From Sipunculus nudus (Eukaryota > Annelida > Sipuncula > Golfingiida > Sipunculidae): DNA of 64,000 bases. Below the pieces are notes generated by a model that was given only the letters and a program-made list of their open reading frames with translations, had not been told where the DNA came from and did no database searches. Positions 1 to 59,424 of this stretch are shown here, one piece after another; the stretch's first letter is position 1; each line of letters begins with the position of its first letter. A program made the position numbers and the translations under genes. Where the stretch lies: the NCBI GenBank assembly GCA_026874595.1, contig CM049315.1, positions 72,461,416-72,525,415 of the forward strand. The letters are read 5' to 3'.

Positions 1-60
1 ACTGATACATGTTACGTCATACACTAATATCTCGAAAGCAATTGTTCAGTTTTTGGAAAA

Positions 61-79
61 TTACCGCTAGGGGGCGCTG
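61..79 (+). promoter_or_regulatory. CTCF-consensus-like site 1 (one per monomer)
   Basis: Bases 61-79 match 18 of 19 positions of the vertebrate CTCF consensus YDRCCASYAGRKGGCRSYV. The only mismatch is G for the A in CCA. The core is CCGCTAGGGGGCGCTG at 64-79. It recurs every 1274 bp in the same orientation, 34 times in this window. CTCF and its motif are conserved across bilaterians, but binding here is only predicted. GC-rich AGGGGGCGC words also occur in invertebrate transposons for other reasons. Confidence 0.55.
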
Positions 80-280
80 CACTGCAACCCCGTACCTACT
101 ATCATTGTTTAACCATATCTCCACAACTACACATTTTAGGTACATAAACTGTACACCATATGAATTGGCCTTTCATGGCCTTTCTGCCCATGACCTCTTT
201 TGTTTAATCATACATGGTCCCCGCCAATTTTAACAACTTTGTAAAAATTAAAACCCGCATGCACAAATACATATGCCATC

Positions 281-298
281 ACGCATGCATGCACGCGT
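281..298. other. 18-nt alternating purine-pyrimidine tract in the monomer
   Basis: Bases 281-298 alternate purine and pyrimidine without exception and contain the palindrome GCATGCATGC. Tracts of this kind are prone to form Z-DNA under negative supercoiling. It sits 27 bp upstream of the E-box and 58 bp upstream of the TATA box, and is repeated in every copy. Confidence 0.6.
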
Positions 299-323
299 TT
301 TCGTATGAAAGACAGACACGCTT

Positions 324-331
324 TCACGTGA
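324..331. promoter_or_regulatory. Palindromic E-box TCACGTGA in the monomer
   Basis: The perfect palindrome TCACGTGA contains CACGTG, the canonical class-B E-box bound by bHLH factors (MYC/MAX, USF, CLOCK types). It lies 25 bp upstream of a TATA box in each copy. Function is inferred only. Confidence 0.45.
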
Positions 332-355
332 CTGCAAAAATTATAGCGTTCGCCG

Positions 356-365
356 TATAAAATAA
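356..365 (+). promoter_or_regulatory. TATA box in the monomer
   Basis: TATAAAATAA is a near-consensus TATA element in a GC-richer setting (CGCCG before it, GTGGCCAC after it). Together with the E-box upstream it forms a minimal promoter-like module that would start transcription on the plus strand near bases 385-390. The last, truncated monomer keeps this module at 42398-42407 and ends 9 bp later, so transcription from it would enter the unique DNA to the right. Confidence 0.4.
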
Positions 366-595
366 GTGGCCACAGGCACTCTTTGCGGGCCGGTTTGCCA
401 TTTCTGTCGCGTTATAGTTTATTGCTTGCCGGAATCAGAGATTTCGACAAGTATGTTGATCAGTTCCGTTTGTTTGTTTGTCTGTATGTCCCCGCTCTAC
501 AGGCCACAATTTTGCACCAATCGTCCTGAAACTTATAGATAGAGTGTATAATCGGTTCTTCTCGGAGCCTATTGTTTTTGGTCATGATCGGTCAA

Positions 596-613
596 GGGTC
601 AAGGTCAGGGTCA
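596..613 (+). promoter_or_regulatory. Three abutting nuclear-receptor half-sites in the monomer
   Basis: GGGTCA, AGGTCA and GGGTCA lie end to end without spacers (DR0, DR0). The middle one is preceded by TCA, giving TCAAGGTCA at 599-607, the extended half-site recognised by monomeric NR5A/FTZ-F1 and ERR receptors. DR0 is the arrangement favoured by NR6A1-type receptors. Present in every copy that reaches this point. Occupancy is unknown. Confidence 0.45.
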
Positions 614-878
614 CCAAAAAGCTCAAAAACGGTTTTCTCTTCATACCTTCGTCAAAAATAGCCGTAGGCACCTAATCTGTAGCCCGTTTTATTTGCCACT
701 GCATGGCCACTTCCAACACTGCAAAATTGCCTCATTTCGCTGTTACCATGGTTACGCAATTTTGGGGAGAAATCATGGAATTTCGTGATATTTTTCAAAT
801 TTGCAGCAATTTTACTGATTCTGAGATATTTTATGTAACATAAGAATATCTCGAAACGGGTTTTTCAGATTTTGGAAA

Positions 879-897
879 TGGCCGCCAGGGGGCGTTG
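879..897 (+). promoter_or_regulatory. CTCF-consensus-like site 2 (one per monomer)
   Basis: Bases 879-897 match 17 of 19 positions of the vertebrate CTCF consensus, with core CCGCCAGGGGGCG. The orientation is the same as site 1, 818 bp upstream. Present in all 33 complete copies and absent from the truncated last one. It lies in the second of two anciently related segments of the monomer, at the same relative place as site 1. Confidence 0.5.
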
Positions 898-3800
898 CAG
901 ATGAAAAAACATGAAAATTTGGTTTGGTGCTATACCTCCAGAACTATTAAACATTGGGCCATTTCCATCACAGCACCTTAAACTAGGGTCCATGGGCTTA
1001 TTTTTGCGCATAGGTGCCAAAGTGCGCTATTGCCAGATTTCTCTATTTTTGGGGTAAAACCTTTGAATTTTGAAAATATGCAGTTTTCAGCTTCTAACTC
1101 TGTCAGTTTTTATGCTAGAGAGGTCAAAAGTTTTGCATCTTGTAGCCCTTGGTGAGTTCTCGGTGATCCAACCAAAAATCTTGCAAAATCTCGCACCGTT
1201 TCTCGTCGAATGAGATTTCGCGATTTCACGGTGACATGCCCTATAGGCCACAGATATGCAGGCATCCTTTTGAAACTGATACATGTTACGTCATACACTA
1301 ATATCTCGAAAGCAATTGTTCAGTTTTTGGAAAATTACCGCTAGGGGGCGCTGCACTGCAACCCCGTACCTACTATCATTGTTTAACCATATCTCCACAA
1401 CTACACATTTTAGGTACATAAACTGTACACCATATGAATTGGCCTTTCATGGCCTTTCTGCCCATGACCTCTTTTGTTTAATCATACATGGTCCCCGCCA
1501 ATTTTAACAACTTTGTAAAAATTAAAACCCGCATGCACAAATACATATACCATCACGCATGCATGCACGCGTTTTCGTATGAAAGACAGACACGCTTTCA
1601 CGTGACTGCAAAAATTATAGCGTTCGCCGTATAAAATAAGTGGCCACAGGCACTCTTTGCGGGCCGGTTTGCCATTTCTGTCGCGTTATAGTTTATTGCT
1701 TGCCGGAATCAGAGATTTCGACAAGTATGTTGATCAGTTCCGTTTGTTTGTTTGTCTGTATGTCCCCGCTCTACAGGCCACAATTTTGCACCAATCGTCC
1801 TGAAACTTATAGATAGAGTGTATAATCGGTTCTTCTCGGAGCCTATTGTTTTTGGTCATGATCGGTCAAGGGTCAAGGTCAGGGTCACCAAAAAGCTCAA
1901 AAACGGTTTTCTCTTCATACCTTCGTCAAAAATAGCCGTAGGCACCTAATCTGTAGCCCGTTTTATTTGCCACTGCATGGCCACTTCCAACACTGCAAAA
2001 TTGCCTCATTTCGCTGTTACCATGGTTACGCAATTTTGGGGAGAAATCATGGAATTTCGTGATATTTTTCAAATTTGCAGCAATTTTACTGATTCTGAGA
2101 TATTTTATGTAACATAAGAATATCTCGAAACGGGTTTTTCAGATTTTGGAAATGGCCGCCAGGGGGCGTTGCAGATGAAAAAACATGAAAATTTGTTTTG
2201 GTGCTATACCTCCAGAACTATTAAACATTGGGCCATTTCCATCACAGCACCTTAAACTAGGGTCCATGGGCTTATTTTTGCGCATAGGTGCCAAAGTGCG
2301 CTATTGCCAGATTTCTCTATTTTTGGGGTAAAACCTTTGAATTTTGAAAATATGCAGTTTTCAGCTTCTAACTCTGTCAGTTTTTATGCTAGAGAGGTCA
2401 AAAGTTTTGCATCTTGTAGCCCTTGGTGAGTTCTCGGTGATCCAACCAAAAATCTTGCAAAATCTCGCACCGTTTCTCGTCGAATGAGATTTCGCGATTT
2501 CACGGTGACATGCCCTATAGGCCACAGATATGCAGGCATCCTTTTGAAACTGATACATGTTACGTCATACACTAATATCTCGAAAGCAATTGTTCAGTTT
2601 TTGGAAAATTACCGCTAGGGGGCGCTGCACTGCAACCCCGTACCTACTATCATTGTTTAACCATATCTCCACAACTACACATTTTAGGTACATAAACTGT
2701 ACACCATATGAATTGGCCTTTCATGGCCTTTCTGCCCATGACCTCTTTTGTTTAATCATACATGGTCCCCGCCAATTTTAACAACTTTGTAAAAATTAAA
2801 ACCCGCATGCACAAATACATATGCCATCACGCATGCATGCACGCGTTTTCGTATGAAAGACAGACACGCTTTCACGTGACTGCAAAAATTATAGCGTTCG
2901 CCGTATAAAATAAGTGGCCACAGGCACTCTTTGCGGGCCGGTTTGCCATTTCTGTCGCGTTATAGTTTATTGCTTGCCGGAATCAGAGATTTCGACAAGT
3001 ATGTTGATCAGTTCCGTTTGTTTGTTTGTCTGTATGTCCCCGCTCTACAGGCCACAATTTTGCACCAATCGTCCTGAAACTTATAGATAGAGTGTATAAT
3101 CGGTTCTTCTCGGAGCCTATTGTTTTTGGTCATGATCGGTCAAGGGTCAAGGTCAGGGTCACCAAAAAGCTCAAAAACGGTTTTCTCTTCATACCTTCGT
3201 CAAAAATAGCCGTAGGCACCTAATCTGTAGCCCGTTTTATTTGCCACTGCATGGCCACTTCCAACACTGCAAAATTGCCTCATTTCGCTGTTACCATGGT
3301 TACGCAATTTTGGGGAGAAATCATGGAATTTCGTGATATTTTTCAAATTTGCAGCAATTTTACTGATTCTGAGATATTTTATGTAACATAAGAATATCTC
3401 GAAACGGGTTTTTCAGATTTTGGAAATGGCCGCCAGGGGGCGTTGCAGATGAAAAAACATGAAAATTTGTTTTGGTGCTATACCTCCAGAACTATTAAAC
3501 ATTGGGCCATTTCCATCACAGCACCTTAAACTAGGGTCCATGGGCTTATTTTTGCGCATAGGTGCCAAAGTGCGCTATTGCCAGATTTCTCTATTTTTGG
3601 GGTAAAACCTTTGAATTTTGAAAATATGCAGTTTTCAGCTTCTAACTCTGTCAGTTTTTATGCTAGAGAGGTCAAAAGTTTTGCATCTTGTAGCCCTTGG
3701 TGAGTTCTCGGTGATCCAACCAAAAATCTTGCAAAATCTCGCACCGTTTCTCGTCGAATGAGATTTCGCGATTTCACGGTGACATGCCCTATAGGCCACA

Positions 3801-6370
3801 GATATGCAGGCATCCTTTTGAAACTGATACATGTTACGTCATACACTAATATCTCGAAAGCAATTGTTCAGTTTTTGGAAAATTACCGCTAGGGGGCGCT
3901 GCACTGCAACCCCGTACCTACTATCATTGTTTAACCATATCTCCACAACTACACATTTTAGGTACATAAACTGTACACCATATGAATTGGCCTTTCATGG
4001 CCTTTCTGCCCATGACCTCTTTTGTTTAATCATACATGGTCCCCGCCAATTTTAACAACTTTGTAAAAATTAAAACCCGCATGCACAAATACATATGCCA
4101 TCACGCATGCATGCACGCGTTTTCGTATGAAAGACAGACACGCTTTCACGTGACTGCAAAAATTATAGCGTTCGCCGTATAAAATAAGTGGCCACAGGCA
4201 CTCTTTGCGGGCCGGTTTGCCATTTCTGTCGCGTTATAGTTTATTGCTTGCCGGAATCAGAGATTTCGACAAGTATGTTGATCAGTTCCGTTTGTTTGTT
4301 TGTCTGTATGTCCCCGCTCTACAGGCCACAATTTTGCACCAATCGTCCTGAAACTTATAGATAGAGTGTATAATCGGTTCTTCTCGGAGCCTATTGTTTT
4401 TGGTCATGATCGGTCAAGGGTCAAGGTCAGGGTCACCAAAAAGCTCAAAAACGGTTTTCTCTTCATACCTTCGTCAAAAATAGCCGTAGGCACCTAATCT
4501 GTAGCCCGTTTTATTTGCCACTGCATGGCCACTTCCAACACTGCAAAATTGCCTCATTTCGCTGTTACCATGGTTACGCAATTTTGGGGAGAAATCATGG
4601 AATTTCGTGATATTTTTCAAATTTGCAGCAATTTTACTGATTCTGAGATATTTTATGTAACATAAGAATATCTCGAAACGGGTTTTTCAGATTTTGGAAA
4701 TGGCCGCCAGGGGGCGTTGCAGATGAAAAAACATGAAAATTTGGTTTGGTGCTATACCTCCAGAACTATTAAACATTGGGCCATTTCCATCACAGCACCT
4801 TAAACTAGGGTCCATGGGCTTATTTTTGCGCATAGGTGCCAAAGTGCGCTATTGCCAGATTTCTCTATTTTTGGGGTAAAACCTTTGAATTTTGAAAATA
4901 TGCAGTTTTCAGCTTCTAACTCTGTCAGTTTTTATGCTAGAGAGGTCAAAAGTTTTGCATCTTGTAGCCCTTGGTGAGTTCTCGGTGATCCAACCAAAAA
5001 TCTTGCAAAATCTCGCACCGTTTCTCGTCGAATGAGATTTCGCGATTTCACGGTGACATGCCCTATAGGCCACAGATATGCAGGCATCCTTTTGAAACTG
5101 ATACATGTTACGTCATACACTAATATCTCGAAAGCAATTGTTCAGTTTTTGGAAAATTACCGCTAGGGGGCGCTGCACTGCAACCCCGTACCTACTATCA
5201 TTGTTTAACCATATCTCCACAACTACACATTTTAGGTACATAAACTGTACACCATATGAATTGGCCTTTCATGGCCTTTCTGCCCATGACCTCTTTTGTT
5301 TAATCATACATGGTCCCCGCCAATTTTAACAACTTTGTAAAAATTAAAACCCGCATGCACAAATACATATGCCATCACGCATGCATGCACGCGTTTTCGT
5401 ATGAAAGACAGACACGCTTTCACGTGACTGCAAAAATTATAGCGTTCGCCGTATAAAATAAGTGGCCACAGGCACTCTTTGCGGGCCGGTTTGCCATTTC
5501 TGTCGCGTTATAGTTTATTGCTTGCCGGAATCAGAGATTTCGACAAGTATGTTGATCAGTTCCGTTTGTTTGTTTGTCTGTATGTCCCCGCTCTACAGGC
5601 CACAATTTTGCACCAATCGTCCTGAAACTTATAGATAGAGTGTATAATCGGTTCTTCTCGGAGCCTATTGTTTTTGGTCATGATCGGTCAAGGGTCAAGG
5701 TCAGGGTCACCAAAAAGCTCAAAAACGGTTTTCTCTTCATACCTTCGTCAAAAATAGCCGTAGGCACCTAATCTGTAGCCCGTTTTATTTGCCACTGCAT
5801 GGCCACTTCCAACACTGCAAAATTGCCTCATTTCGCTGTTACCATGGTTACGCAATTTTGGGGAGAAATCATGGAATTTCGTGATATTTTTCAAATTTGC
5901 AGCAATTTTACTGATTCTGAGATATTTTATGTAACATAAGAATATCTCGAAACGGGTTTTTCAGATTTTGGAAATGGCCGCCAGGGGGCGTTGCAGATGA
6001 AAAAACATGAAAATTTGTTTTGGTGCTATACCTCCAGAACTATTAAACATTGGGCCATTTCCATCACAGCACCTTAAACTAGGGTCCATGGGCTTATTTT
6101 TGCGCATAGGTGCCAAAGTGCGCTATTGCCAGATTTCTCTATTTTTGGGGTAAAACCTTTGAATTTTGAAAATATGCAGTTTTCAGCTTCTAACTCTGTC
6201 AGTTTTTATGCTAGAGAGGTCAAAAGTTTTGCATCTTGTAGCCCTTGGTGAGTTCTCGGTGATCCAACCAAAAATCTTGCAAAATCTCGCACCGTTTCTC
6301 GTCGAATGAGATTTCGCGATTTCACGGTGACATGCCCTATAGGCCACAGATATGCAGGCATCCTTTTGAA

Positions 6371-9300
6371 ACTGATACATGTTACGTCATACACTAATAT
6401 CTCGAAAGCAATTGTTCAGTTTTTGGAAAATTACCGCTAGGGGGCGCTGCACTGCAACCCCGTACCTACTATCATTGTTTAACCATATCTCCACAACTAC
6501 ACATTTTAGGTACATAAACTGTACACCATATGAATTGGCCTTTCATGGCCTTTCTGCCCATGACCTCTTTTGTTTAATCATACATGGTCCCCGCCAATTT
6601 TAACAACTTTGTAAAAATTAAAACCCGCATGCACAAATACATATGCCATCACGCATGCATGCACGCGTTTTCGTATGAAAGACAGACACGCTTTCACGTG
6701 ACTGCAAAAATTATAGCGTTCGCCGTATAAAATAAGTGGCCACAGGCACTCTTTGCGGGCCGGTTTGCCATTTCTGTCGCGTTATAGTTTATTGCTTGCC
6801 GGAATCAGAGATTTCGACAAGTATGTTGATCAGTTCCGTTTGTTTGTTTGTCTGTATGTCCCCGCTCTACAGGCCACAATTTTGCACCAATCGTCCTGAA
6901 ACTTATAGATAGAGTGTATAATCAGTTCTTCTCGGAGCCTATTGTTTTTGGTCATGATCGGTCAAGGGTCAAGGTCAGGGTCACCAAAAAGCTCAAAAAC
7001 GGTTTTCTCTTCATACCTTCGTCAAAAATAGCCGTAGGCACCTAATCTGTAGCCCGTTTTATTTGCCACTGCATGGCCACTTCCAACACTGCAAAATTGC
7101 CTCATTTCGCTGTTACCATGGTTACGCAATTTTGGGGAGAAATCATGGAATTTCGTGATATTTTTCAAATTTGCAGCAATTTTACTGATTCTGAGATATT
7201 TTATGTAACATAAGAATATCTCGAAACGGGTTTTTCAGATTTTGGAAATGGCCGCCAGGGGGCGTTGCAGATGAAAAAACATGAAAATTTGTTTTGGTGC
7301 TATACCTCCAGAACTATTAAACATTGGGCCATTTCCATCACAGCACCTTAAACTAGGGTCCATGGGCTTATTTTTGCGCATAGGTGCCAAAGTGCGCTAT
7401 TGCCAGATTTCTCTATTTTTGGGGTAAAACCTTTGAATTTTGAAAATATGCAGTTTTCAGCTTCTAACTCTGTCAGTTTTTATGCTAGAGAGGTCAAAAG
7501 TTTTGCATCTTGTAGCCCTTGGTGAGTTCTCGGTGATCCAACCAAAAATCTTGCAAAATCTCGCACCGTTTCTCGTCGAATGAGATTTCGCGATTTCACG
7601 GTGACATGCCCTATAGGCCACAGATATGCAGGCATCCTTTTGAAACTGATACATGTTACGTCATACACTAATATCTCGAAAGCAATTGTTCAGTTTTTGG
7701 AAAATTACCGCTAGGGGGCGCTGCACTGCAACCCCGTACCTACTATCATTGTTTAACCATATCTCCACAACTACACATTTTAGGTACATAAACTGTACAC
7801 CATATGAATTGGCCTTTCATGGCCTTTCTGCCCATGACCTCTTTTGTTTAATCATACATGGTCCCCGCCAATTTTAACAACTTTGTAAAAATTAAAACCC
7901 GCATGCACAAATACATATGCCATCACGCATGCATGCACGCGTTTTCGTATGAAAGACAGACACGCTTTCACGTGACTGCAAAAATTATAGCGTTCGCCGT
8001 ATAAAATAAGTGGCCACAGGCACTCTTTGCGGGCCGGTTTGCCATTTCTGTCGCGTTATAGTTTATTGCTTGCCGGAATCAGAGATTTCGACAAGTATGT
8101 TGATCAGTTCCGTTTGTTTGTTTGTCTGTATGTCCCCGCTCTACAGGCCACAATTTTGCACCAATCGTCCTGAAACTTATAGATAGAGTGTATAATCGGT
8201 TCTTCTCGGAGCCTATTGTTTTTGGTCATGATCGGTCTAGGGTCAAGGTCAGGGTCACCAAAAAGCTCAAAAACGGTTTTCTCTTCATACCTTCGTCAAA
8301 AATAGCCGTAGGCACCTAATCTGTAGCCCGTTTTATTTGCCACTGCATGGCCACTTCCAACACTGCAAAATTGCCTCATTTCGCTGTTACCATGGTTACG
8401 CAATTTTGGGGAGAAATCATGGAATTTCGTGATATTTTTCAAATTTGCAGCAATTTTACTGATTCTGAGATATTTTATGTAACATAAGAATATCTCGAAA
8501 CGGGTTTTTCAGATTTTGGAAATGGCCGCCAGGGGGCGTTGCAGATGAAAAAACATGAAAATTTGTTTTGGTGCTATACCTCCAGAACTATTAAACATTG
8601 GGCCATTTCCATCACAGCACCTTAAACTAGGGTCCATGGGCTTATTTTTGCGCATAGGTGCCAAAGTGCGCTATTGCCAGATTTCTCTATTTTTGGGGTA
8701 AAACCTTTGAATTTTGAAAATATGCAGTTTTCAGCTTCTAACTCTGTCAGTTTTTATGCTAGAGAGGTCAAAAGTTTTGCATCTTGTAGCCCTTGGTGAG
8801 TTCTCGGTGATCCAACCAAAAATCTTGCAAAATCTCGCACCGTTTCTCGTCGAATGAGATTTCGCGATTTCACGGTGACATGCCCTATAGGCCACAGATA
8901 TGCAGGCATCCTTTTGAAACTGATACATGTTACGTCATACACTAATATCTCGAAAGCAATTGTTCAGTTTTTGGAAAATTACCGCTAGGGGGCGCTGCAC
9001 TGCAACCCCGTACCTACTATCATTGTTTAACCATATCTCCACAACTACACATTTTAGGTACATAAACTGTACACCATATGAATTGGCCTTTCATGGCCTT
9101 TCTGCCCATGACCTCTTTTGTTTAATCATACATGGTCCCCGCCAATTTTAACAACTTTGTAAAAATTAAAACCCGCATGCACAAATACATATGCCATCAC
9201 GCATGCATGCACGCGTTTTCGTATGAAAGACAGACACGCTTTCACGTGACTGCAAAAATTATAGCGTTCGCCGTATAAAATAAGTGGCCACAGGCACTCT

Positions 9301-12300
9301 TTGCGGGCCGGTTTGCCATTTCTGTCGCGTTATAGTTTATTGCTTGCCGGAATCAGAGATTTCGACAAGTATGTTGATCAGTTCCGTTTGTTTGTTTGTC
9401 TGTATGTCCCCGCTCTACAGGCCACAATTTTGCACCAATCGTCCTGAAACTTATAGATAGAGAGTATAATCGGTTCTTCTCGGAGCCTATTGTTTTTGGT
9501 CATGATCGGTTTAGGGTCAAGGTCAGGGTCACCAAAAAGCTCAAAAACGGTTTTCTCTTCATACCTTCGTCAAAAATAGCCGTAGGCACCTAATCTGTAG
9601 CCCGTTTTATTTGCCACTGCATGGCCACTTCCAACACTGCAAAATTGCCTCATTTCGCTGTTACCATGGTTACGCAATTTTGGGGAGAAATCATGGAATT
9701 TCGTGATATTTTTCAAATTTGCAGCAATTTTACTGATTCTGAGATATTTTATGTAACATAAGAATATCTCGAAACGGGTTTTTCAGATTTTGGAAATGGC
9801 CGCCAGGGGGCGTTGCAGATGAAAAAACATGAAAATTTGTTTTGGTGCTATACCTCCAGAACTATTAAACATTGGGCCATTTCCATCACAGCACCTTAAA
9901 CAAGGGTCCATGGGCTTATTTTTGCGCATAGGTGCCAAAGTGCGCTATTGCCAGATTTCTCTATTTTTGGGGTAAAACCTTTGAATTTTGAAAATATGCA
10001 GTTTTCAGCTTCTAACTCTGTCAGTTTTTATGCTAGAGAGGTCAAAAGTTTTGCATCTTGTAGCCCTTGGTGAGTTCTCGGTGATCCAACCAAAAATCTT
10101 GCAAAATCTCGCACCGTTTCTCGTCGAATGAGATTTCGCGATTTCACGGTGACATGCCCTATAGGCCACAGATATGCAGGCATCCTTTTGAAACTGATAC
10201 ATGTTACGTCATACACTAATATCTCGAAAGCAATTGTTCAGTTTTTGGAAAATTACCGCTAGGGGGCGCTGCACTGCAACCCCGTACCTACTATCATTGT
10301 TTAACCATATCTCCACAACTACACATTTTAGGTACATAAACTGTACACCATATGAATTGGCCTTTCATGGCCTTTCTGCCCATGACCTCTTTTGTTTAAT
10401 CATACATGGTCCCCGCCAATTTTAACAACTTTGTAAAAATTAAAACCCGCATGCACAAATACATATGCCATCACGCATGCATGCACGCGTTTTCGTATGA
10501 AAGACAGACACGCTTTCACGTGACTGCAAAAATTATAGCGTTCGCCGTATAAAATAAGTGGCCACAGGCACTCTTTGCGGGCCGGTTTGCCATTTCTGTC
10601 GCGTTATAGTTTATTGCTTGCCGGAATCAGAGATTTCGACAAGTATGTTGATCAGTTCCGTTTGTTTGTTTGTCTGTATGTCCCCGCTCTACAGGCCACA
10701 ATTTTGCACCAATCGTCCTGAAACTTATAGATAGAGTGTATAATCAGTTCTTCTCGGAGCCTATTGTTTTTGGTCATGATCGGTCAAGGGTCAAGGTCAG
10801 GGTCACCAAAAAGCTCAAAAACGGTTTTCTCTTCATACCTTCGTCAAAAATAGCCGTAGGCACCTAATCTGTAGCCCGTTTTATTTGCCACTGCATGGCC
10901 ACTTCCAACACTGCAAAATTGCCTCATTTCGCTGTTACCATGGTTACGCAATTTTGGGGAGAAATCATGGAATTTCGTGATATTTTTCAAATTTGCAGCA
11001 ATTTTACTGATTCTGAGATATTTTATGTAACATAAGAATATCTCGAAACGGGTTTTTCAGATTTTGGAAATGGCCGCCAGGGGGCGTTGCAGATGAAAAA
11101 ACATGAAAATTTGTTTTGGTGCTATACCTCCAGAACTATTAAACATTGGGCCATTTCCATCACAGCACCTTAAACTAGGGTCCATGGGCTTATTTTTGCG
11201 CATAGGTGCCAAAGTGCGCTATTGCCAGATTTCTCTATTTTTGGGGTAAAACCTTTGAATTTTGAAAATATGCAGTTTTCAGCTTCTAACTCTGTCAGTT
11301 TTTATGCTAGAGAGGTCAAAAGTTTTGCATCTTGTAGCCCTTGGTGAGTTCTCGGTGATCCAACCAAAAATCTTGCAAAATCTCGCACCGTTTCTCGTCG
11401 AATGAGATTTCGCGATTTCACGGTGACATGCCCTATAGGCCACAGATATGCAGGCATCCTTTTGAAACTGATACATGTTACGTCATACACTAATATCTCG
11501 AAAGCAATTGTTCAGTTTTTGGAAAATTACCGCTAGGGGGCGCTGCACTGCAACCCCGTACCTACTATCATTGTTTAACCATATCTCCACAACTACACAT
11601 TTTAGGTACATAAACTGTACACCATATGAATTGGCCTTTCATGGCCTTTCTGCCCATGACCTCTTTTGTTTAATCATACATGGTCCCCGCCAATTTTAAC
11701 AACTTTGTAAAAATTAAAACCCGCATGCACAAATACATATGCCATCACGCATGCATGCACGCGTTTTCGTATGAAAGACAGACACGCTTTCACGTGACTG
11801 CAAAAATTATAGCGTTCGCCGTATAAAATAAGTGGCCACAGGCACTCTTTGCGGGCCGGTTTGCCATTTCTGTCGCGTTATAGTTTATTGCTTGCCGGAA
11901 TCAGAGATTTCGACAAGTATGTTGATCAGTTCCGTTTGTTTGTTTGTCTGTATGTCCCCGCTCTACAGGCCACAATTTTGCACCAATCGTCCTGAAACTT
12001 ATAGATAGAGTGTATAATCGGTTCTTCTCGGAGCCTATTGTTTTTGGTCATGATCGGTCTAGGGTCAAGGTCAGGGTCACCAAAAAGCTCAAAAACGGTT
12101 TTCTCTTCATACCTTCGTCAAAAATAGCCGTAGGCACCTAATCTGTAGCCCGTTTTATTTGCCACTGCATGGCCACTTCCAACACTGCAAAATTGCCTCA
12201 TTTCGCTGTTACCATGGTTACGCAATTTTGGGGAGAAATCATGGAATTTCGTGATATTTTTCAAATTTGCAGCAATTTTACTGATTCTGAGATATTTTAT

Positions 12301-29302: not shown

Positions 29303-30576
29303 ACTGATACATGTTACGTCATACACTAATATCTCGAAAGCAATTGTTCAGTTTTTGGAAAATTACCGCTAGGGGGCGCTGCACTGCAACCCCGTACCTA
29401 CTATCATTGTTTAACCATATCTCCACAACTACACATTTTAGGTACATAAACTGTACACCATATGAATTGGCCTTTCATGGCCTTTCTGCCCATGACCTCT
29501 TTTGTTTAATCATACATGGTCCCCGCCAATTTTAACAACTTTGTAAAAATTAAAACCCGCATGCACAAATACATATGCCATCACGCATGCATGCACGCGT
29601 TTTCGTATGAAAGACAGACACGCTTTCACGTGACTGCAAAAATTATAGCGTTCGCCGTATAAAATAAGTGGCCACAGGCACTCTTTGCGGGCCGGTTTGC
29701 CATTTCTGTCGCGTTATAGTTTATTGCTTGCCGGAATCAGAGATTTCGACAAGTATGTTGATCAGTTCCGTTTGTTTGTTTGTCTGTATGTCCCCGCTCT
29801 ACAGGCCACAATTTTGCACCAATCGTCCTGAAACTTATAGATAGAGTGTATAATCAGTTCTTCTCGGAGCCTATTGTTTTTGGTCATGATCGGTCAAGGG
29901 TCAAGGTCAGGGTCACCAAAAAGCTCAAAAACGGTTTTCTCTTCATACCTTCGTCAAAAATAGCCGTAGGCACCTAATCTGTAGCCCGTTTTATTTGCCA
30001 CTGCATGGCCACTTCCAACACTGCAAAATTGCCTCATTTCGCTGTTACCATGGTTACGCAATTTTGGGGAGAAATCATGGAATTTCGTGATATTTTTCAA
30101 ATTTGCAGCAATTTTACTGATTCTGAGATATTTTATGTAACATAAGAATATCTCGAAACGGGTTTTTCAGATTTTGGAAATGGCCGCCAGGGGGCGTTGC
30201 AGATGAAAAAACATGAAAATTTGTTTTGGTGCTATACCTCCAGAACTATTAAACATTGGGCCATTTCCATCACAGCACCTTAAACTAGGGTCCATGGGCT
30301 TATTTTTGCGCATAGGTGCCAAAGTGCGCTATTGCCAGATTTCTCTATTTTTGGGGTAAAACCTTTGAATTTTGAAAATATGCAGTTTTCAGCTTCTAAC
30401 TCTGTCAGTTTTTATGCTAGAGAGGTCAAAAGTTTTGCATCTTGTAGCCCTTGGTGAGTTCTCGGTGATCCAACCAAAAATCTTGCAAAATCTCGCACCG
30501 TTTCTCGTCGAATGAGATTTCGCGATTTCACGGTGACATGCCCTATAGGCCACAGATATGCAGGCATCCTTTTGAA

Positions 30577-33500
30577 ACTGATACATGTTACGTCATACAC
30601 TAATATCTCGAAAGCAATTGTTCAGTTTTTGGAAAATTACCGCTAGGGGGCGCTGCACTGCAACCCCGTACCTACTATCATTGTTTAACCATATCTCCAC
30701 AACTACACATTTTAGGTACATAAACTGTACACCATATGAATTGGCCTTTCATGGCCTTTCTGCCCATGACCTCTTTTGTTTAATCATACATGGTCCCCGC
30801 CAATTTTAACAACTTTGTAAAAATTAAAACCCGCATGCACAAATACATATGCCATCACGCATGCATGCACGCGTTTTCGTATGAAAGACAGACACGCTTT
30901 CACGTGACTGCAAAAATTATAGCGTTCGCCGTATAAAATAAGTGGCCACAGGCACTCTTTGCGGGCCGGTTTGCCATTTCTGTCGCGTTATAGTTTATTG
31001 CTTGCCGGAATCAGAGATTTCGACAAGTATGTTGATCAGTTCCGTTTGTTTGTTTGTCTGTATGTCCCCGCTCTACAGGCCACAATTTTGCACCAATCGT
31101 CCTGAAACTTATAGATAGAGTGTATAATCGGTTCTTCTCGGAGCCTATTGTTTTTGGTCATGATCGGTCAAGGGTCAAGGTCAGGGTCACCAAAAAGCTC
31201 AAAAACGGTTTTCTCTTCATACCTTCGTCAAAAATAGCCGTAGGCACCTAATCTGTAGCCCGTTTTATTTGCCACTGCATGGCCACTTCCAACACTGCAA
31301 AATTGCCTCATTTCGCTGTTACCATGGTTACGCAATTTTGGGGAGAAATCATGGAATTTCGTGATATTTTTCAAATTTGCAGCAATTTTACTGATTCTGA
31401 GATATTTTATGTAACATAAGAATATCTCGAAACGGGTTTTTCAGATTTTGGAAATGGCCGCCAGGGGGCGTTGCAGATGAAAAAACATGAAAATTTGTTT
31501 TGGTGCTATACCTCCAGAACTATTAAACATTGGGCCATTTCCATCACAGCACCTTAAACTAGGGTCCATGGGCTTATTTTTGCGCATAGGTGCCAAAGTG
31601 CGCTATTGCCAGATTTCTCTATTTTTGGGGTAAAACCTTTGAATTTTGAAAATATGCAGTTTTCAGCTTCTAACTCTGTCAGTTTTTATGCTAGAGAGGT
31701 CAAAAGTTTTGCATCTTGTAGCCCTTGGTGAGTTCTCGGTGATCCAACCAAAAATCTTGCAAAATCTCGCACCGTTTCTCGTCGAATGAGATTTCGCGAT
31801 TTCACGGTGACATGCCCTATAGGCCACAGATATGCAGGCATCCTTTTGAAACTGATACATGTTACGTCATACACTAATATCTCGAAAGCAATTGTTCAGT
31901 TTTTGGAAAATTACCGCTAGGGGGCGCTGCACTGCAACCCCGTACCTACTATCATTGTTTAACCATATCTCCACAACTACACATTTTAGGTACATAAACT
32001 GTACACCATATGAATTGGCCTTTCATGGCCTTTCTGCCCATGACCTCTTTTGTTTAATCATACATGGTCCCCGCCAATTTTAACAACTTTGTAAAAATTA
32101 AAACCCGCATGCACAAATACATATGCCATCACGCATGCATGCACGCGTTTTCGTATGAAAGACAGACACGCTTTCACGTGACTGCAAAAATTATAGCGTT
32201 CGCCGTATAAAATAAGTGGCCACAGGCACTCTTTGCGGGCCGGTTTGCCATTTCTGTCGCGTTATAGTTTATTGCTTGCCGGAATCAGAGATTTCGACAA
32301 GTATGTTGATCAGTTCCGTTTGTTTGTTTGTCTGTATGTCCCCGCTCTACAGGCCACAATTTTGCACCAATCGTCCTGAAACTTATAGATAGAGTGTATA
32401 ATCGGTTCTTCTCGGAGCCTATTGTTTTTGGTCATGATCGGTCAAGGGTCAAGGTCAGGGTCACCAAAAAGCTCAAAAACGGTTTTCTCTTCATACCTTC
32501 GTCAAAAATAGCCGTAGGCACCTAATCTGTAGCCCGTTTTATTTGCCACTGCATGGCCACTTCCAACACTGCAAAATTGCCTCATTTCGCTGTTACCATG
32601 GTTACGCAATTTTGGGGAGAAATCATGGAATTTCGTGATATTTTTCAAATTTGCAGCAATTTTACTGATTCTGAGATATTTTATGTAACATAAGAATATC
32701 TCGAAACGGGTTTTTCAGATTTTGGAAATGGCCGCCAGGGGGCGTTGCAGATGAAAAAACATGAAAATTTGTTTTGGTGCTATACCTCCAGAACTATTAA
32801 ACATTGGGCCATTTCCATCACAGCACCTTAAACTAGGGTCCATGGGCTTATTTTTGCGCATAGGTGCCAAAGTGCGCTATTGCCAGATTTCTCTATTTTT
32901 GGGGTAAAACCTTTGAATTTTGAAAATATGCAGTTTTCAGCTTCTAACTCTGTCAGTTTTTATGCTAGAGAGGTCAAAAGTTTTGCATCTTGTAGCCCTT
33001 GGTGAGTTCTCGGTGATCCAACCAAAAATCTTGCAAAATCTCGCACCGTTTCTCGTCGAATGAGATTTCGCGATTTCACGGTGACATGCCCTATAGGCCA
33101 CAGATATGCAGGCATCCTTTTGAAACTGATACATGTTACGTCATACACTAATATCTCGAAAGCAATTGTTCAGTTTTTGGAAAATTACCGCTAGGGGGCG
33201 CTGCACTGCAACCCCGTACCTACTATCATTGTTTAACCATATCTCCACAACTACACATTTTAGGTACATAAACTGTACACCATATGAATTGGCCTTTCAT
33301 GGCCTTTCTGCCCATGACCTCTTTTGTTTAATCATACATGGTCCCCGCCAATTTTAACAACTTTGTAAAAATTAAAACCCGCATGCACAAATACATATGC
33401 CATCACGCATGCATGCACGCGTTTTCGTATGAAAGACAGACACGCTTTCACGTGACTGCAAAAATTATAGCGTTCGCCGTATAAAATAAGTGGCCACAGG

Positions 33501-36500
33501 CACTCTTTGCGGGCCGGTTTGCCATTTCTGTCGCGTTATAGTTTATTGCTTGCCGGAATCAGAGATTTCGACAAGTATGTTGATCAGTTCCGTTTGTTTG
33601 TTTGTCTGTATGTCCCCGCTCTACAGGCCACAATTTTGCACCAATCGTCCTGAAACTTATAGATAGAGTGTATAATCGGTTCTTCTCGGAGCCTATTGTT
33701 TTTGGTCATGATCGGTCAAGGGTCAAGGTCAGGGTCACCAAAAAGCTCAAAAACGGTTTTCTCTTCATACCTTCGTCAAAAATAGCCGTAGGCACCTAAT
33801 CTGTAGCCCGTTTTATTTGCCACTGCATGGCCACTTCCAACACTGCAAAATTGCCTCATTTCGCTGTTACCATGGTTACGCAATTTTGGGGAGAAATCAT
33901 GGAATTTCGTGATATTTTTCAAATTTGCAGCAATTTTACTGATTCTGAGATATTTTATGTAACATAAGAATATCTCGAAACGGGTTTTTCAGATTTTGGA
34001 AATGGCCGCCAGGGGGCGTTGCAGATGAAAAAACATGAAAATTTGTTTTGGTGCTATACCTCCAGAACTATTAAACATTGGGCCATTTCCATCACAGCAC
34101 CTTAAACTAGGGTCCATGGGCTTATTTTTGCGCATAGGTGCCAAAGTGCGCTATTGCCAGATTTCTCTATTTTTGGGGTAAAACCTTTGAATTTTGAAAA
34201 TATGCAGTTTTCAGCTTCTAACTCTGTCAGTTTTTATGCTAGAGAGGTCAAAAGTTTTGCATCTTGTAGCCCTTGGTGAGTTCTCGGTGATCCAACCAAA
34301 AATCTTGCAAAATCTCGCACCGTTTCTCGTCGAATGAGATTTCGCGATTTCACGGTGACATGCCCTATAGGCCACAGATATGCAGGCATCCTTTTGAAAC
34401 TGATACATGTTACGTCATACACTAATATCTCGAAAGCAATTGTTCAGTTTTTGGAAAATTACCGCTAGGGGGCGCTGCACTGCAACCCCGTACCTACTAT
34501 CATTGTTTAACCATATCTCCACAACTACACATTTTAGGTACATAAACTGTACACCATATGAATTGGCCTTTCATGGCCTTTCTGCCCATGACCTCTTTTG
34601 TTTAATCATACATGGTCCCCGCCAATTTTAACAACTTTGTAAAAATTAAAACCCGCATGCACAAATACATATGCCATCACGCATGCATGCACGCGTTTTC
34701 GTATGAAAGACAGACACGCTTTCACGTGACTGCAAAAATTATAGCGTTCGCCGTATAAAATAAGTGGCCACAGGCACTCTTTGCGGGCCGGTTTGCCATT
34801 TCTGTCGCGTTATAGTTTATTGCTTGCCGGAATCAGAGATTTCGACAAGTATGTTGATCAGTTCCGTTTGTTTGTTTGTCTGTATGTCCCCGCTCTACAG
34901 GCCACAATTTTGCACCAATCGTCCTGAAACTTATAGATAGAGTGTATAATCGGTTCTTCTCGGAGCCTATTGTTTTTGGTCATGATCGGTCAAGGGTCAA
35001 GGTCAGGGTCACCAAAAAGCTCAAAAACGGTTTTCTCTTCATACCTTCGTCAAAAATAGCCGTAGGCACCTAATCTGTAGCCCGTTTTATTTGCCACTGC
35101 ATGGCCACTTCCAACACTGCAAAATTGCCTCATTTCGCTGTTACCATGGTTACGCAATTTTGGGGAGAAATCATGGAATTTCGTGATATTTTTCAAATTT
35201 GCAGCAATTTTACTGATTCTGAGATATTTTATGTAACATAAGAATATCTCGAAACGGGTTTTTCAGATTTTGGAAATGGCCGCCAGGGGGCGTTGCAGAT
35301 GAAAAAACATGAAAATTTGTTTTGGTGCTATACCTCCAGAACTATTAAACATTGGGCCATTTCCATCACAGCACCTTAAACTAGGGTCCATGGGCTTATT
35401 TTTGCGCATAGGTGCCAAAGTGCGCTATTGCCAGATTTCTCTATTTTTGGGGTAAAACCTTTGAATTTTGAAAATATGCAGTTTTCAGCTTCTAACTCTG
35501 TCAGTTTTTATGCTAGAGAGGTCAAAAGTTTTGCATCTTGTAGCCCTTGGTGAGTTCTCGGTGATCCAACCAAAAATCTTGCAAAATCTCGCACCGTTTC
35601 TCGTCGAATGAGATTTCGCGATTTCACGGTGACATGCCCTATAGGCCACAGATATGCAGGCATCCTTTTGAAACTGATACATGTTACGTCATACACTAAT
35701 ATCTCGAAAGCAATTGTTCAGTTTTTGGAAAATTACCGCTAGGGGGCGCTGCACTGCAACCCCGTACCTACTATCATTGTTTAACCATATCTCCACAACT
35801 ACACATTTTAGGTACATAAACTGTACACCATATGAATTGGCCTTTCATGGCCTTTCTGCCCATGACCTCTTTTGTTTAATCATACATGGTCCCCGCCAAT
35901 TTTAACAACTTTGTAAAAATTAAAACCCGCATGCACAAATACATATGCCATCACGCATGCATGCACGCGTTTTCGTATGAAAGACAGACACGCTTTCACG
36001 TGACTGCAAAAATTATAGCGTTCGCCGTATAAAATAAGTGGCCACAGGCACTCTTTGCGGGCCGGTTTGCCATTTCTGTCGCGTTATAGTTTATTGCTTG
36101 CCGGAATCAGAGATTTCGACAAGTATGTTGATCAGTTCCGTTTGTTTGTTTGTCTGTATGTCCCCGCTCTACAGGCCACAATTTTGCACCAATCGTCCTG
36201 AAACTTATAGATAGAGTGTATAATCGGTTCTTCTCGGAGCCTATTGTTTTTGGTCATGATCGGTCAAGGGTCAAGGTCAGGGTCACCAAAAAGCTCAAAA
36301 ACGGTTTTCTCTTCATACCTTCGTCAAAAATAGCCGTAGGCACCTAATCTGTAGCCCGTTTTATTTGCCACTGCATGGCCACTTCCAACACTGCAAAATT
36401 GCCTCATTTCGCTGTTACCATGGTTACGCAATTTTGGGGAGAAATCATGGAATTTCGTGATATTTTTCAAATTTGCAGCAATTTTACTGATTCTGAGATA

Positions 36501-39500
36501 TTTTATGTAACATAAGAATATCTCGAAACGGGTTTTTCAGATTTTGGAAATGGCCGCCAGGGGGCGTTGCAGATGAAAAAACATGAAAATTTGTTTTGGT
36601 GCTATACCTCCAGAACTATTAAACATTGGGCCATTTCCATCACAGCACCTTAAACTAGGGTCCATGGGCTTATTTTTGCGCATAGGTGCCAAAGTGCGCT
36701 ATTGCCAGATTTCTCTATTTTTGGGGTAAAACCTTTGAATTTTGAAAATATGCAGTTTTCAGCTTCTAACTCTGTCAGTTTTTATGCTAGAGAGGTCAAA
36801 AGTTTTGCATCTTGTAGCCCTTGGTGAGTTCTCGGTGATCCAACCAAAAATCTTGCAAAATCTCGCACCGTTTCTCGTCGAATGAGATTTCGCGATTTCA
36901 CGGTGACATGCCCTATAGGCCACAGATATGCAGGCATCCTTTTGAAACTGATACATGTTACGTCATACACTAATATCTCGAAAGCAATTGTTCAGTTTTT
37001 GGAAAATTACCGCTAGGGGGCGCTGCACTGCAACCCCGTACCTACTATCATTGTTTAACCATATCTCCACAACTACACATTTTAGGTACATAAACTGTAC
37101 ACCATATGAATTGGCCTTTCATGGCCTTTCTGCCCATGACCTCTTTTGTTTAATCATACATGGTCCCCGCCAATTTTAACAACTTTGTAAAAATTAAAAC
37201 CCGCATGCACAAATACATATGCCATCACGCATGCATGCACGCGTTTTCGTATGAAAGACAGACACGCTTTCACGTGACTGCAAAAATTATAGCGTTCGCC
37301 GTATAAAATAAGTGGCCACAGGCACTCTTTGCGGGCCGGTTTGCCATTTCTGTCGCGTTATAGTTTATTGCTTGCCGGAATCAGAGATTTCGACAAGTAT
37401 GTTGATCAGTTCCGTTTGTTTGTTTGTCTGTATGTCCCCGCTCTACAGGCCACAATTTTGCACCAATCGTCCTGAAACTTATAGATAGAGTGTATAATCG
37501 GTTCTTCTCGGAGCCTATTGTTTTTGGTCATGATCGGTCAAGGGTCAAGGTCAGGGTCACCAAAAAGCTCAAAAACGGTTTTCTCTTCATACCTTCGTCA
37601 AAAATAGCCGTAGGCACCTAATCTGTAGCCCGTTTTATTTGCCACTGCATGGCCACTTCCAACACTGCAAAATTGCCTCATTTCGCTGTTACCATGGTTA
37701 CGCAATTTTGGGGAGAAATCATGGAATTTCGTGATATTTTTCAAATTTGCAGCAATTTTACTGATTCTGAGATATTTTATGTAACATAAGAATATCTCGA
37801 AACGGGTTTTTCAGATTTTGGAAATGGCCGCCAGGGGGCGTTGCAGATGAAAAAACATGAAAATTTGTTTTGGTGCTATACCTCCAGAACTATTAAACAT
37901 TGGGCCATTTCCATCACAGCACCTTAAACTAGGGTCCATGGGCTTATTTTTGCGCATAGGTGCCAAAGTGCGCTATTGCCAGATTTCTCTATTTTTGGGG
38001 TAAAACCTTTGAATTTTGAAAATATGCAGTTTTCAGCTTCTAACTCTGTCAGTTTTTATGCTAGAGAGGTCAAAAGTTTTGCATCTTGTAGCCCTTGGTG
38101 AGTTCTCGGTGATCCAACCAAAAATCTTGCAAAATCTCGCACCGTTTCTCGTCGAATGAGATTTCGCGATTTCACGGTGACATGCCCTATAGGCCACAGA
38201 TATGCAGGCATCCTTTTGAAACTGATACATGTTACGTCATACACTAATATCTCGAAAGCAATTGTTCAGTTTTTGGAAAATTACCGCTAGGGGGCGCTGC
38301 ACTGCAACCCCGTACCTACTATCATTGTTTAACCATATCTCCACAACTACACATTTTAGGTACATAAACTGTACACCATATGAATTGGCCTTTCATGGCC
38401 TTTCTGCCCATGACCTCTTTTGTTTAATCATACATGGTCCCCGCCAATTTTAACAACTTTGTAAAAATTAAAACCCGCATGCACAAATACATATGCCATC
38501 ACGCATGCATGCACGCGTTTTCGTATGAAAGACAGACACGCTTTCACGTGACTGCAAAAATTATAGCGTTCGCCGTATAAAATAAGTGGCCACAGGCACT
38601 CTTTGCGGGCCGGTTTGCCATTTCTGTCGCGTTATAGTTTATTGCTTGCCGGAATCAGAGATTTCGACAAGTATGTTGATCAGTTCCGTTTGTTTGTTTG
38701 TCTGTATGTCCCCGCTCTACAGGCCACAATTTTGCACCAATCGTCCTGAAACTTATAGATAGAGTGTATAATCGGTTCTTCTCGGAGCCTATTGTTTTTG
38801 GTCATGATCGGTCAAGGGTCAAGGTCAGGGTCACCAAAAAGCTCAAAAACGGTTTTCTCTTCATACCTTCGTCAAAAATAGCCGTAGGCACCTAATCTGT
38901 AGCCCGTTTTATTTGCCACTGCATGGCCACTTCCAACACTGCAAAATTGCCTCATTTCGCTGTTACCATGGTTACGCAATTTTGGGGAGAAATCATGGAA
39001 TTTCGTGATATTTTTCAAATTTGCAGCAATTTTACTGATTCTGAGATATTTTATGTAACATAAGAATATCTCGAAACGGGTTTTTCAGATTTTGGAAATG
39101 GCCGCCAGGGGGCGTTGCAGATGAAAAAACATGAAAATTTGTTTTGGTGCTATACCTCCAGAACTATTAAACATTGGGCCATTTCCATCACAGCACCTTA
39201 AACTAGGGTCCATGGGCTTATTTTTGCGCATAGGTGCCAAAGTGCGCTATTGCCAGATTTCTCTATTTTTGGGGTAAAACCTTTGAATTTTGAAAATATG
39301 CAGTTTTCAGCTTCTAACTCTGTCAGTTTTTATGCTAGAGAGGTCAAAAGTTTTGCATCTTGTAGCCCTTGGTGAGTTCTCGGTGATCCAACCAAAAATC
39401 TTGCAAAATCTCGCACCGTTTCTCGTCGAATGAGATTTCGCGATTTCACGGTGACATGCCCTATAGGCCACAGATATGCAGGCATCCTTTTGAAACTGAT

Positions 39501-42042
39501 ACATGTTACGTCATACACTAATATCTCGAAAGCAATTGTTCAGTTTTTGGAAAATTACCGCTAGGGGGCGCTGCACTGCAACCCCGTACCTACTATCATT
39601 GTTTAACCATATCTCCACAACTACACATTTTAGGTACATAAACTGTACACCATATGAATTGGCCTTTCATGGCCTTTCTGCCCATGACCTCTTTTGTTTA
39701 ATCATACATGGTCCCCGCCAATTTTAACAACTTTGTAAAAATTAAAACCCGCATGCACAAATACATATGCCATCACGCATGCATGCACGCGTTTTCGTAT
39801 GAAAGACAGACACGCTTTCACGTGACTGCAAAAATTATAGCGTTCGCCGTATAAAATAAGTGGCCACAGGCACTCTTTGCGGGCCGGTTTGCCATTTCTG
39901 TCGCGTTATAGTTTATTGCTTGCCGGAATCAGAGATTTCGACAAGTATGTTGATCAGTTCCGTTTGTTTGTTTGTCTGTATGTCCCCGCTCTACAGGCCA
40001 CAATTTTGCACCAATCGTCCTGAAACTTATAGATAGAGTGTATAATCGGTTCTTCTCGGAGCCTATTGTTTTTGGTCATGATCGGTCAAGGGTCAAGGTC
40101 AGGGTCACCAAAAAGCTCAAAAACGGTTTTCTCTTCATACCTTCGTCAAAAATAGCCGTAGGCACCTAATCTGTAGCCCGTTTTATTTGCCACTGCATGG
40201 CCACTTCCAACACTGCAAAATTGCCTCATTTCGCTGTTACCATGGTTACGCAATTTTGGGGAGAAATCATGGAATTTCGTGATATTTTTCAAATTTGCAG
40301 CAATTTTACTGATTCTGAGATATTTTATGTAACATAAGAATATCTCGAAACGGGTTTTTCAGATTTTGGAAATGGCCGCCAGGGGGCGTTGCAGATGAAA
40401 AAACATGAAAATTTGTTTTGGTGCTATACCTCCAGAACTATTAAACATTGGGCCATTTCCATCACAGCACCTTAAACTAGGGTCCATGGGCTTATTTTTG
40501 CGCATAGGTGCCAAAGTGCGCTATTGCCAGATTTCTCTATTTTTGGGGTAAAACCTTTGAATTTTGAAAATATGCAGTTTTCAGCTTCTAACTCTGTCAG
40601 TTTTTATGCTAGAGAGGTCAAAAGTTTTGCATCTTGTAGCCCTTGGTGAGTTCTCGGTGATCCAACCAAAAATCTTGCAAAATCTCGCACCGTTTCTCGT
40701 CGAATGAGATTTCGCGATTTCACGGTGACATGCCCTATAGGCCACAGATATGCAGGCATCCTTTTGAAACTGATACATGTTACGTCATACACTAATATCT
40801 CGAAAGCAATTGTTCAGTTTTTGGAAAATTACCGCTAGGGGGCGCTGCACTGCAACCCCGTACCTACTATCATTGTTTAACCATATCTCCACAACTACAC
40901 ATTTTAGGTACATAAACTGTACACCATATGAATTGGCCTTTCATGGCCTTTCTGCCCATGACCTCTTTTGTTTAATCATACATGGTCCCCGCCAATTTTA
41001 ACAACTTTGTAAAAATTAAAACCCGCATGCACAAATACATATGCCATCACGCATGCATGCACGCGTTTTCGTATGAAAGACAGACACGCTTTCACGTGAC
41101 TGCAAAAATTATAGCGTTCGCCGTATAAAATAAGTGGCCACAGGCACTCTTTGCGGGCCGGTTTGCCATTTCTGTCGCGTTATAGTTTATTGCTTGCCGG
41201 AATCAGAGATTTCGACAAGTATGTTGATCAGTTCCGTTTGTTTGTTTGTCTGTATGTCCCCGCTCTACAGGCCACAATTTTGCACCAATCGTCCTGAAAC
41301 TTATAGATAGAGTGTATAATCGGTTCTTCTCGGAGCCTATTGTTTTTGGTCATGATCGGTCAAGGGTCAAGGTCAGGGTCACCAAAAAGCTCAAAAACGG
41401 TTTTCTCTTCATACCTTCGTCAAAAATAGCCGTAGGCACCTAATCTGTAGCCCGTTTTATTTGCCACTGCATGGCCACTTCCAACACTGCAAAATTGCCT
41501 CATTTCGCTGTTACCATGGTTACGCAATTTTGGGGAGAAATCATGGAATTTCGTGATATTTTTCAAATTTGCAGCAATTTTACTGATTCTGAGATATTTT
41601 ATGTAACATAAGAATATCTCGAAACGGGTTTTTCAGATTTTGGAAATGGCCGCCAGGGGGCGTTGCAGATGAAAAAACATGAAAATTTGTTTTGGTGCTA
41701 TACCTCCAGAACTATTAAACATTGGGCCATTTCCATCACAGCACCTTAAACTAGGGTCCATGGGCTTATTTTTGCGCATAGGTGCCAAAGTGCGCTATTG
41801 CCAGATTTCTCTATTTTTGGGGTAAAACCTTTGAATTTTGAAAATATGCAGTTTTCAGCTTCTAACTCTGTCAGTTTTTATGCTAGAGAGGTCAAAAGTT
41901 TTGCATCTTGTAGCCCTTGGTGAGTTCTCGGTGATCCAACCAAAAATCTTGCAAAATCTCGCACCGTTTCTCGTCGAATGAGATTTCGCGATTTCACGGT
42001 GACATGCCCTATAGGCCACAGATATGCAGGCATCCTTTTGAA
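30577..42042 (+). repeat. Homogeneous run of nine type-A monomers at the array edge
   Basis: Copies 25-33 all carry the type-A state at each diagnostic position I checked. The edge of the array is therefore not more diverged than its interior. Confidence 0.8.
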
Positions 42043-42416
42043 ACTGATACATGTTACGTCATACACTAATATCTCGAAAGCAATTGTTCAGTTTTTGGAA
42101 AATTACCGCTAGGGGGCGCTGCACTGCAACCCCGTACCTACTATCATTGTTTAACCATATCTCCACAACTACACATTTTAGGTACATAAACTGTACACCA
42201 TATGAATTGGCCTTTCATGGCCTTTCTGCCCATGACCTCTTTTGTTTAATCATACATGGTCCCCGCCAATTTTAACAACTTTGTAAAAATTAAAACCCGC
42301 ATGCACAAATACATATGCCATCACGCATGCATGCACGCGTTTTCGTATGAAAGACAGACACGCTTTCACGTGACTGCAAAAATTATAGCGTTCGCCGTAT
42401 AAAATAAGTGGCCACA
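42043..42416 (+). repeat. Truncated terminal monomer (374 bp)
   Basis: It matches monomer bases 1-374 with no obvious decay, then stops within GTGGCCACA. It keeps CTCF-like site 1, the alternating tract, the E-box and the TATA box, and loses the half-sites and CTCF-like site 2. Confidence 0.97.
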
Positions 42417-59294: not shown

Positions 59295-59424
59295 GTAAAG
59301 ATAAGAAGTTATTCATCTATCGTCATTTGACTATATTAACAGCACAGGCCAATTACTCTGAGGTGTGGTTTCAACGTTTCAGGTTGCTTTTAATTGAATA
59401 GGTTTATAAAAGAAAATATATGTG

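Follow-up and report, generated by a model that had tools for sequence, protein, structure and literature searches.

Structure and homogeneity of the array

The window analysed here is a stretch of 64,000 nucleotides, and positions 1-42416 of it are taken up by a head-to-tail array of 33 complete monomers of 1274 bp and a partial monomer of 374 bp, all on the plus strand. The first monomer (1..1274, plus strand) was used as the coordinate frame for the features described below. The extent of the array was determined from its self-identity at a lag of 1274 (0.9989 across 1-42416), from an anchor word which is present 33 times in the array, with 32 of 32 spacings being 1274, and from the match to the consensus. 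The lag identity and the spacings agree with an earlier note on this DNA, which had described a 42-kb array of 33 complete monomers plus a partial one. Tandem Repeats Finder was run with a period limit of 500, and the 1274-bp array is absent from its output. As the array reaches past the left edge of the window, which falls inside it and leaves that side open, 42.4 kb is a lower bound on its length.

Monomer length does not vary at all across the 33 copies. Eight columns are variable among the complete monomers, giving seven distinct sequences, and 15 of the 33 copies are identical; the mean difference is 1.6 bases per 1274 bp (0.13%, all pairs of 33 monomers). The nine rightmost full monomers are all equal to the consensus, and a run of this kind had a P of 0.003 in 5000 shuffles of copy order, in a test that was picked post hoc, once the run had been spotted. 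The copies most alike are those adjoining the right edge (copies 25-33, window 30577-42042), which is the opposite of the decay usually observed at the edges of satellites. A higher-order repeat structure was rejected, as the longest repeated mixed block covers four copies and blocks as long are found in shuffled order (P 0.46).

On the right the array ends abruptly at 42416..42417. The match to the consensus stops at 42416, corresponding to monomer position 374, and similarity is at background within the next 50-bp bins. No blastn match of the monomer to the flank was detected at E 0.1, and the best nhmmer match of the internal module described below to the flank had an E value of only 8.3; with these two null results in the flank, the possibility that the array extends in decayed form beyond 42416 was rejected.

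The GC content of the array is 41-42%, and the observed/expected ratio of CpG is 0.90 in the monomer and 0.72 in the flank. Little depletion of CpG fits a non-vertebrate host, and we infer that the array belongs to a non-vertebrate animal genome; an invertebrate origin had been proposed for this DNA, and the small depletion in both parts of the window is in keeping with it.

CTCF-like sites in the monomer

Each monomer carries two sites of the CTCF motif type on the plus strand, giving 34 + 33 = 67 in the window. Site 1 is located at 61..79 (plus strand, motif match) and is the first of 34 that recur every 1274 bp, the last being at 42103-42121. Site 2 is located at 879..897 (plus strand, motif match), the first of 33 with the same period, the last being at 41647-41665. 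As judged by motif only, site 1 is present at 34/34 and site 2 at 33/33 of their places in the window. The core of site 1 (64-77, CCGCTAGGGGGCGC) matches the 14-base core consensus of CTCF, CCNNNAGGGGGCGC (PMC10287918), at 14/14 bases, and the core of site 2 (882-895, CCGCCAGGGGGCGT) matches it at 13/14.

Word counts gave the same picture. AGGGGGCG was counted 67 times in the window, and each of these copies is a plus-strand one inside the array, and AGGGGGCGC was counted 34 times, with a count of zero in the flank; the two minus-strand words that were counted have zero occurrences within the array. When up to one mismatch to CCNNNAGGGGGCGC was allowed, 67 matches were found in the window, all of them plus, compared to a mean of 0.23 and a largest count of 2 in 100 dinucleotide shuffles, and none was found in the 21.6-kb flank. 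The claim of 67 CTCF-like sites, all on the plus strand, is therefore upheld by word counts and core matches alike.

The 19-mers were scored using a vertebrate CTCF matrix after JASPAR MA0139.1. On this matrix sites 1 and 2 score 22.3 and 22.1 bits, where the maximum is 29.5, and the best score in the 21.6-kb flank is 10.6 bits. When the consensus monomer was shuffled 1000 times with its dinucleotides preserved, 18 of the shuffles gave at least 14 bits, the best gave 20.0 and none gave 22; from base composition alone, approximately 6e-5 sites of such strength are expected per monomer, counting both strands. The sites had been said to match the consensus at 18/19 and 17/19 positions, and this stands if degenerate positions are allowed; by best base the figures are lower, at 14/19 and 16/19, as counted by hand on the matrix.

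Counting the 67 sites as 67 independent hits was rejected, since all of them derive by copying from a pair of paralogous sites. Going by the motif, the independent sites are one or two ancestral ones which were amplified along with the repeat, and all 67 share one orientation because the monomers repeat head-to-tail.

Internal modules and the origin of the two sites

The two sites lie in two related modules within the monomer. Module copy A (651..1011, plus strand) holds site 2, and module copy B (1123..1465, plus strand), which wraps around the monomer start to position 191 of the next copy, holds site 1 of the next monomer; the two are 60.5% identical over 390 alignment columns. The best block between them aligns 796-899 with 1251-1355 at 71% identity (E 1.3e-13), and a local alignment overlapping A and B scored 64.5, compared to 30 or less in 200 shuffles. 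Sites 1 and 2 occupy the equivalent place in modules B and A. A third, degenerate copy of the module was detected at 494..647 (plus strand, nhmmer E 1.1e-4). It has no CTCF match, the best of 170 plus-strand start positions scoring 0.3 bits, and the stretch equivalent to the site is a run of GGTCA words.

This run was also noted in its own right. In the window it spans 580-613, again in each 1274 bp, with five GGTCA words at 580, 590, 597, 603 and 609, among them TCAAGGTCA at 599. Words of the TCAAGGTCA type are targets of the nuclear receptors ERR or FTZ-F1.

Because both sites occupy the same place in duplicated modules, their putative origin is one ancestral site, kept in two of the three module copies and then amplified. 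Sites 1 and 2 differ at four of 19 bases (positions 2, 3, 8 and 17), yet they score 22.3 and 22.1 bits. In simulations of decay, the score of the other site was kept in 0.58-0.67% of trials with four uniform changes, in 2.6-3.1% with four transition-biased changes, and in 1.8-4.1% when changes were drawn at 25-30% divergence. This retention (simulated P 0.006-0.04), from a simulation run after the motif had been chosen by eye, weakly favours the idea that CTCF specificity has been kept. In the A/B alignment, 15-16 of 19 columns agree in the windows immediately upstream of the site, whose starts lie at monomer 42-48, and 15/19 agree in the site itself. The conserved block thus exceeds the width of the CTCF site, and therefore what has been retained need not concern CTCF. 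None of the eight variable columns falls inside the sites, where only 0.24 would be expected by our own arithmetic, and with an expectation this small the invariance of the sites among copies says nothing on constraint.

Coding capacity, promoter words and relatives

A coding gene in the monomer was ruled out, as the longest stop-to-stop frame is 75 codons and the longest frame of each strand had no Pfam match at E 1. An RNA gene was ruled out likewise, the whole window having no Rfam match at gathering scores; three matches below gathering in 41000-64000 (E 0.48-4.8) were taken as chance. No tRNA was found in the window by ARAGORN. A TATAAAA word at 356..362 (plus strand, one per monomer in the consensus) is a weak candidate for a core promoter, and ends 12 bp short of monomer position 374, the break point of the array. 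The monomer lacks the stricter form TATAAA[AT][AG], of which the 21.6-kb flank has 19. With copies that are head-to-tail, non-coding and homogenised, the array is satellite DNA by structure.

Relatives of the monomer were searched for in several collections. Four exact monomer patterns had no match in viral contigs, and the first monomer had none against plasmids and phages. Two exact patterns gave 0 and 3 matches in genome contigs, the three being in bacterial MAGs (L001-L003); these have stretches of 20-52 bp in common with the monomer at the pattern and were taken as chance. None of the viral, prokaryotic, plasmid and phage collections covers animal genomes; that they yielded no relative is what an animal repeat would give, and carries little weight. 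A GTTTG run in the monomer and the GGTCAAGGTCA words after it may resemble dispersed repeats of molluscs.

The flanking sequence

The flank (42417-64000) contains a reverse transcriptase domain (RVT_1, 61252-62073, Pfam E 6.7e-23), and a further RVT_1 match at 60562-61248 (E 0.014) is under the Pfam cut-off. The plus strand of 60562-62313 reads as a series of fragments resembling reverse transcriptase, in consecutive open frames split by stops, and by eye these were taken for a non-LTR element. Of the 223 flank frames of at least 38 codons, nine were scanned with Pfam; the seven besides the reverse transcriptase frames were without a match, and no host gene was named from the nine.

The flank also holds several diverged duplications. 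The segments 46851-47200, 50489-50780 and 50809-51156 are related, being 65-98% alike in parts without gaps, and are spaced by approximately 3.6 kb and 0.38 kb. A long diverged inverted repeat is formed by 49212-49748 and 52738-53301, with four blocks that are 73-80% complementary and approximately 3-4 kb between the arms; the arms may mark the termini of an old mobile element. Short, similar stretches with a coding appearance (for example ...AFLLAPMSPI or ...AFLMPPIS) are located at 42891-42939, 48119-48235, 56774-56890 and 59235-59283. They may be exons from a family of tandem genes; Pfam matched none of the frames scanned here, which cover two of the four places. On the minus strand, 59420-59520 is tRNA-like by eye with a box B of the type TTCGAATC, in which ARAGORN finds no tRNA, and is perhaps a SINE. 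Near the edge of the window, at 63451-63968, a frame resembling a signal peptide by eye is followed by a second frame, with no Pfam match, and the two are perhaps exons of a secreted protein.

Comparison with DXZ4 and other CTCF-bearing repeats

The array had been likened to the mammalian macrosatellite DXZ4, and the likeness holds for the kilobase-scale unit, the lack of a long ORF, the near-identical copies and, with respect to mouse Dxz4, the one-way motifs; it fails for the high GC content and the consensus YY1 sites. DXZ4 and Dxz4 are described as tandem arrays of a kilobase-scale non-coding unit with a CTCF motif, as is the case here (PMC3218863, PMC3491370, PMC5899087, PMC6985041). Neighbouring units of human DXZ4 are reported to be less than 1% divergent, and those of mouse more than 5%, compared to a mean of 0.13% in the array. 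The motif bank of mouse Dxz4 is described as one-way, and 67/67 sites are plus here, whereas human DXZ4 is described as having two opposed motif sets (PMC5899087). The human unit is given as 3 kb, compared to 1274 bp with two sites, and the density is 1.6 sites per kb here against approximately 0.3 in human DXZ4, by our own arithmetic and assuming one site per unit.

GC content is given as 62.2% for human DXZ4 and 53.4% for mouse (PMC3491370), compared to 41-42% for the array, and high GC and CpG content is described as a feature of primate DXZ4 that was lost in mouse. CTCF sites in DXZ4 are reported to be paired with YY1 sites, whereas the monomer has no consensus YY1 site. The words searched for were the consensus forms AANATGGCG and GCCATNTT, with no match on either strand of the monomer; the 5-base YY1 core ATGGC is present three times per strand, and one copy (878) overlaps site 2. 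Human DXZ4 is described as having a promoter in each unit, and mouse Dxz4 as having none. The array was compared by described features, and it may work like DXZ4; it was not classed as a member of DXZ4 because it is not GC-rich and has no consensus YY1 sites.

FIRRE and ICCE, X-linked tandem repeats with CTCF sites, are reported to engage in superloops on the inactive X of mammals (PMC6985041); they are described as lying in transcribed genes and as having paired CTCF-YY1 sites, unlike the array, which is without the YY1 consensus. CTCF is also reported to bind the macrosatellite units of D4Z4 and the 1q23.3 tRNA repeat, which are credited with insulator activity or suggested to act as boundaries (PMC2639723, PMC4041453). 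However, D4Z4 encodes DUX4 (PMC3218863) and the monomer has no frame above 75 codons, and the 1q23.3 unit carries tRNA genes whereas the present window is tRNA-free by ARAGORN.

Ordinary invertebrate satellites are likewise tandem and non-coding and undergo concerted evolution, but the array differs from them in having high-scoring CTCF-type sites twice per unit. We know of no described satellite with two such sites per unit. Among the matches listed in a search of the open-access literature, none was, by title or start of abstract, a CTCF-bearing invertebrate satellite, tandem repeat or macrosatellite.

Possible CTCF binding and a one-way boundary

The features above suggest a scheme in which an older module, duplicated inside the 1274-bp monomer, would have given rise to it, with two of the copies retaining a CTCF-type site of full predicted strength. 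Repeated unequal exchange or amplification would then have multiplied these into 67 or more sites facing one way, which the CTCF of the host may be able to bind where the array is unmethylated. An oligo of the Prss50 promoter contains CTAGGGGGCGC and is listed for band shifts, where CTCF is reported to have bound this fragment of the promoter (PMC3418201). The final 11 bp of the site 1 core are CTAGGGGGCGC, and the Prss50 oligo has further G-rich words.

Both sites begin their core with CCG, which places a CpG at core positions 2-3, and a methylated CpG at these positions is described as the only one that significantly alters the binding energy of CTCF (PMC10287918). As the CpG lies at methylation-sensitive core position 2 in both sites, methylation could gate binding, if they are bound. 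A precedent is described on the inactive X, where the DXZ4 copy is hypomethylated and carries CTCF (PMC3218863).

The orientation of the sites bears on what a bound array would do. A CTCF motif that is forward on the plus strand has the N terminus of the protein facing right. Cohesin is reported to be blocked more often when it meets the N-terminal side of CTCF (PMC10132984). If bound, the bank would by this vertebrate rule of orientation halt cohesin that extrudes loops from the right (the side of 42417-64000), and would form a boundary or loop anchor that works on one side. What a one-way bank is capable of is exemplified by mouse Dxz4, the inversion of which is reported to reverse long-range contacts (PMC5899087).

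Reports from outside the vertebrates are mixed. In two echinoderms, boundaries are described as somewhat enriched for the motif with no orientation pattern, and loop anchors as not enriched (PMC13317027); the authors compare the missing pattern to flies and call for more lineages (PMC13317027). A CCCTC-like motif is reported at boundaries in squid (PMC9023564), the direction of which is unsettled according to a review (PMC10658182), and CTCF-like motifs are reported at loop anchors of coleoids (PMC12407938). In open chromatin of an annelid the CTCF motif is described as mostly located at promoters, and the authors favour gene regulation over architecture (PMC7854359). Some lineages are without CTCF, apparently including flatworms (PMC10658182).

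Since the vertebrate orientation rule is doubtful elsewhere, our estimates are cautious. The reading we prefer, with a probability of roughly 45%, is that of a young homogenised satellite with predicted sites that are open to CTCF in the unmethylated state. That the array serves as a boundary in vivo, which is argued from analogy with vertebrates, appears unlikely. It is more doubtful still that the array could be an independently arisen invertebrate counterpart of DXZ4, that is, a bank of 67 or more co-oriented, methylation-switchable sites at a single locus, which would work as a polar boundary and anchor long-range loops, and which would be maintained by selection acting on the site in both diverged modules.

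Alternatively, the array may be a passive satellite, which we regard as a serious possibility with somewhat less than an even chance. Unequal exchange would keep the copies alike, the array would be heterochromatic or methylated, the CTCF-like sites would be unoccupied hitch-hikers, and both the spread and any function of the array would be independent of CTCF. Near-identity, an abrupt edge, no long ORF and moderate GC are all typical of a young satellite, copying explains the number and the co-orientation of the sites, and the CpGs in the sites are of the methylation-sensitive kind. However, drift alone is unlikely to have kept both paralogous sites at full strength after four changes (P 0.006-0.04), a weak and post hoc argument, and the CpG ratio of 0.90 in the monomer gives no hint of heavy long-term methylation in the germline, although the youth of the array could mask it.

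There is a small chance that the conserved block of approximately 60-80 bp around each site, only part of which is spanned by the likeness to CTCF, belongs to an older dispersed repeat as a functional or structural element, or that another zinc-finger protein targets it. Conservation between A and B does reach upstream to TATCTCGAAA and across the TTTTGGAAAAT stretch, and the third copy is module-like without a site; the differences at matrix positions 2, 3, 8 and 17, on the other hand, leave 22 bits, which fits the specificity of CTCF. That an assembler produced the copy number or the homogeneity out of a shorter array is very improbable, for although there is zero length variation over 33 copies, 15/33 are identical and the window cuts the array, non-adjacent copies share variants in several combinations and not as one repeated block, the longest repeated mixed haplotype string is four copies, as in shuffled order (P 0.46), and there is a clean junction with different sequence at 42416.

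Significance

As the effects of CTCF orientation outside vertebrates are disputed, this locus would be an unusually clean test of them. The 67 same-facing sites would magnify any directional effect, and in Hi-C this would appear at 42416 as a stripe to one side. Without CTCF binding, the array is an ordinary satellite. If the reading of the array as DXZ4-like were true, directional function of CTCF and cohesin would be demonstrated beyond the vertebrates, and a tandem bank of CTCF sites would have originated a second time, independently.
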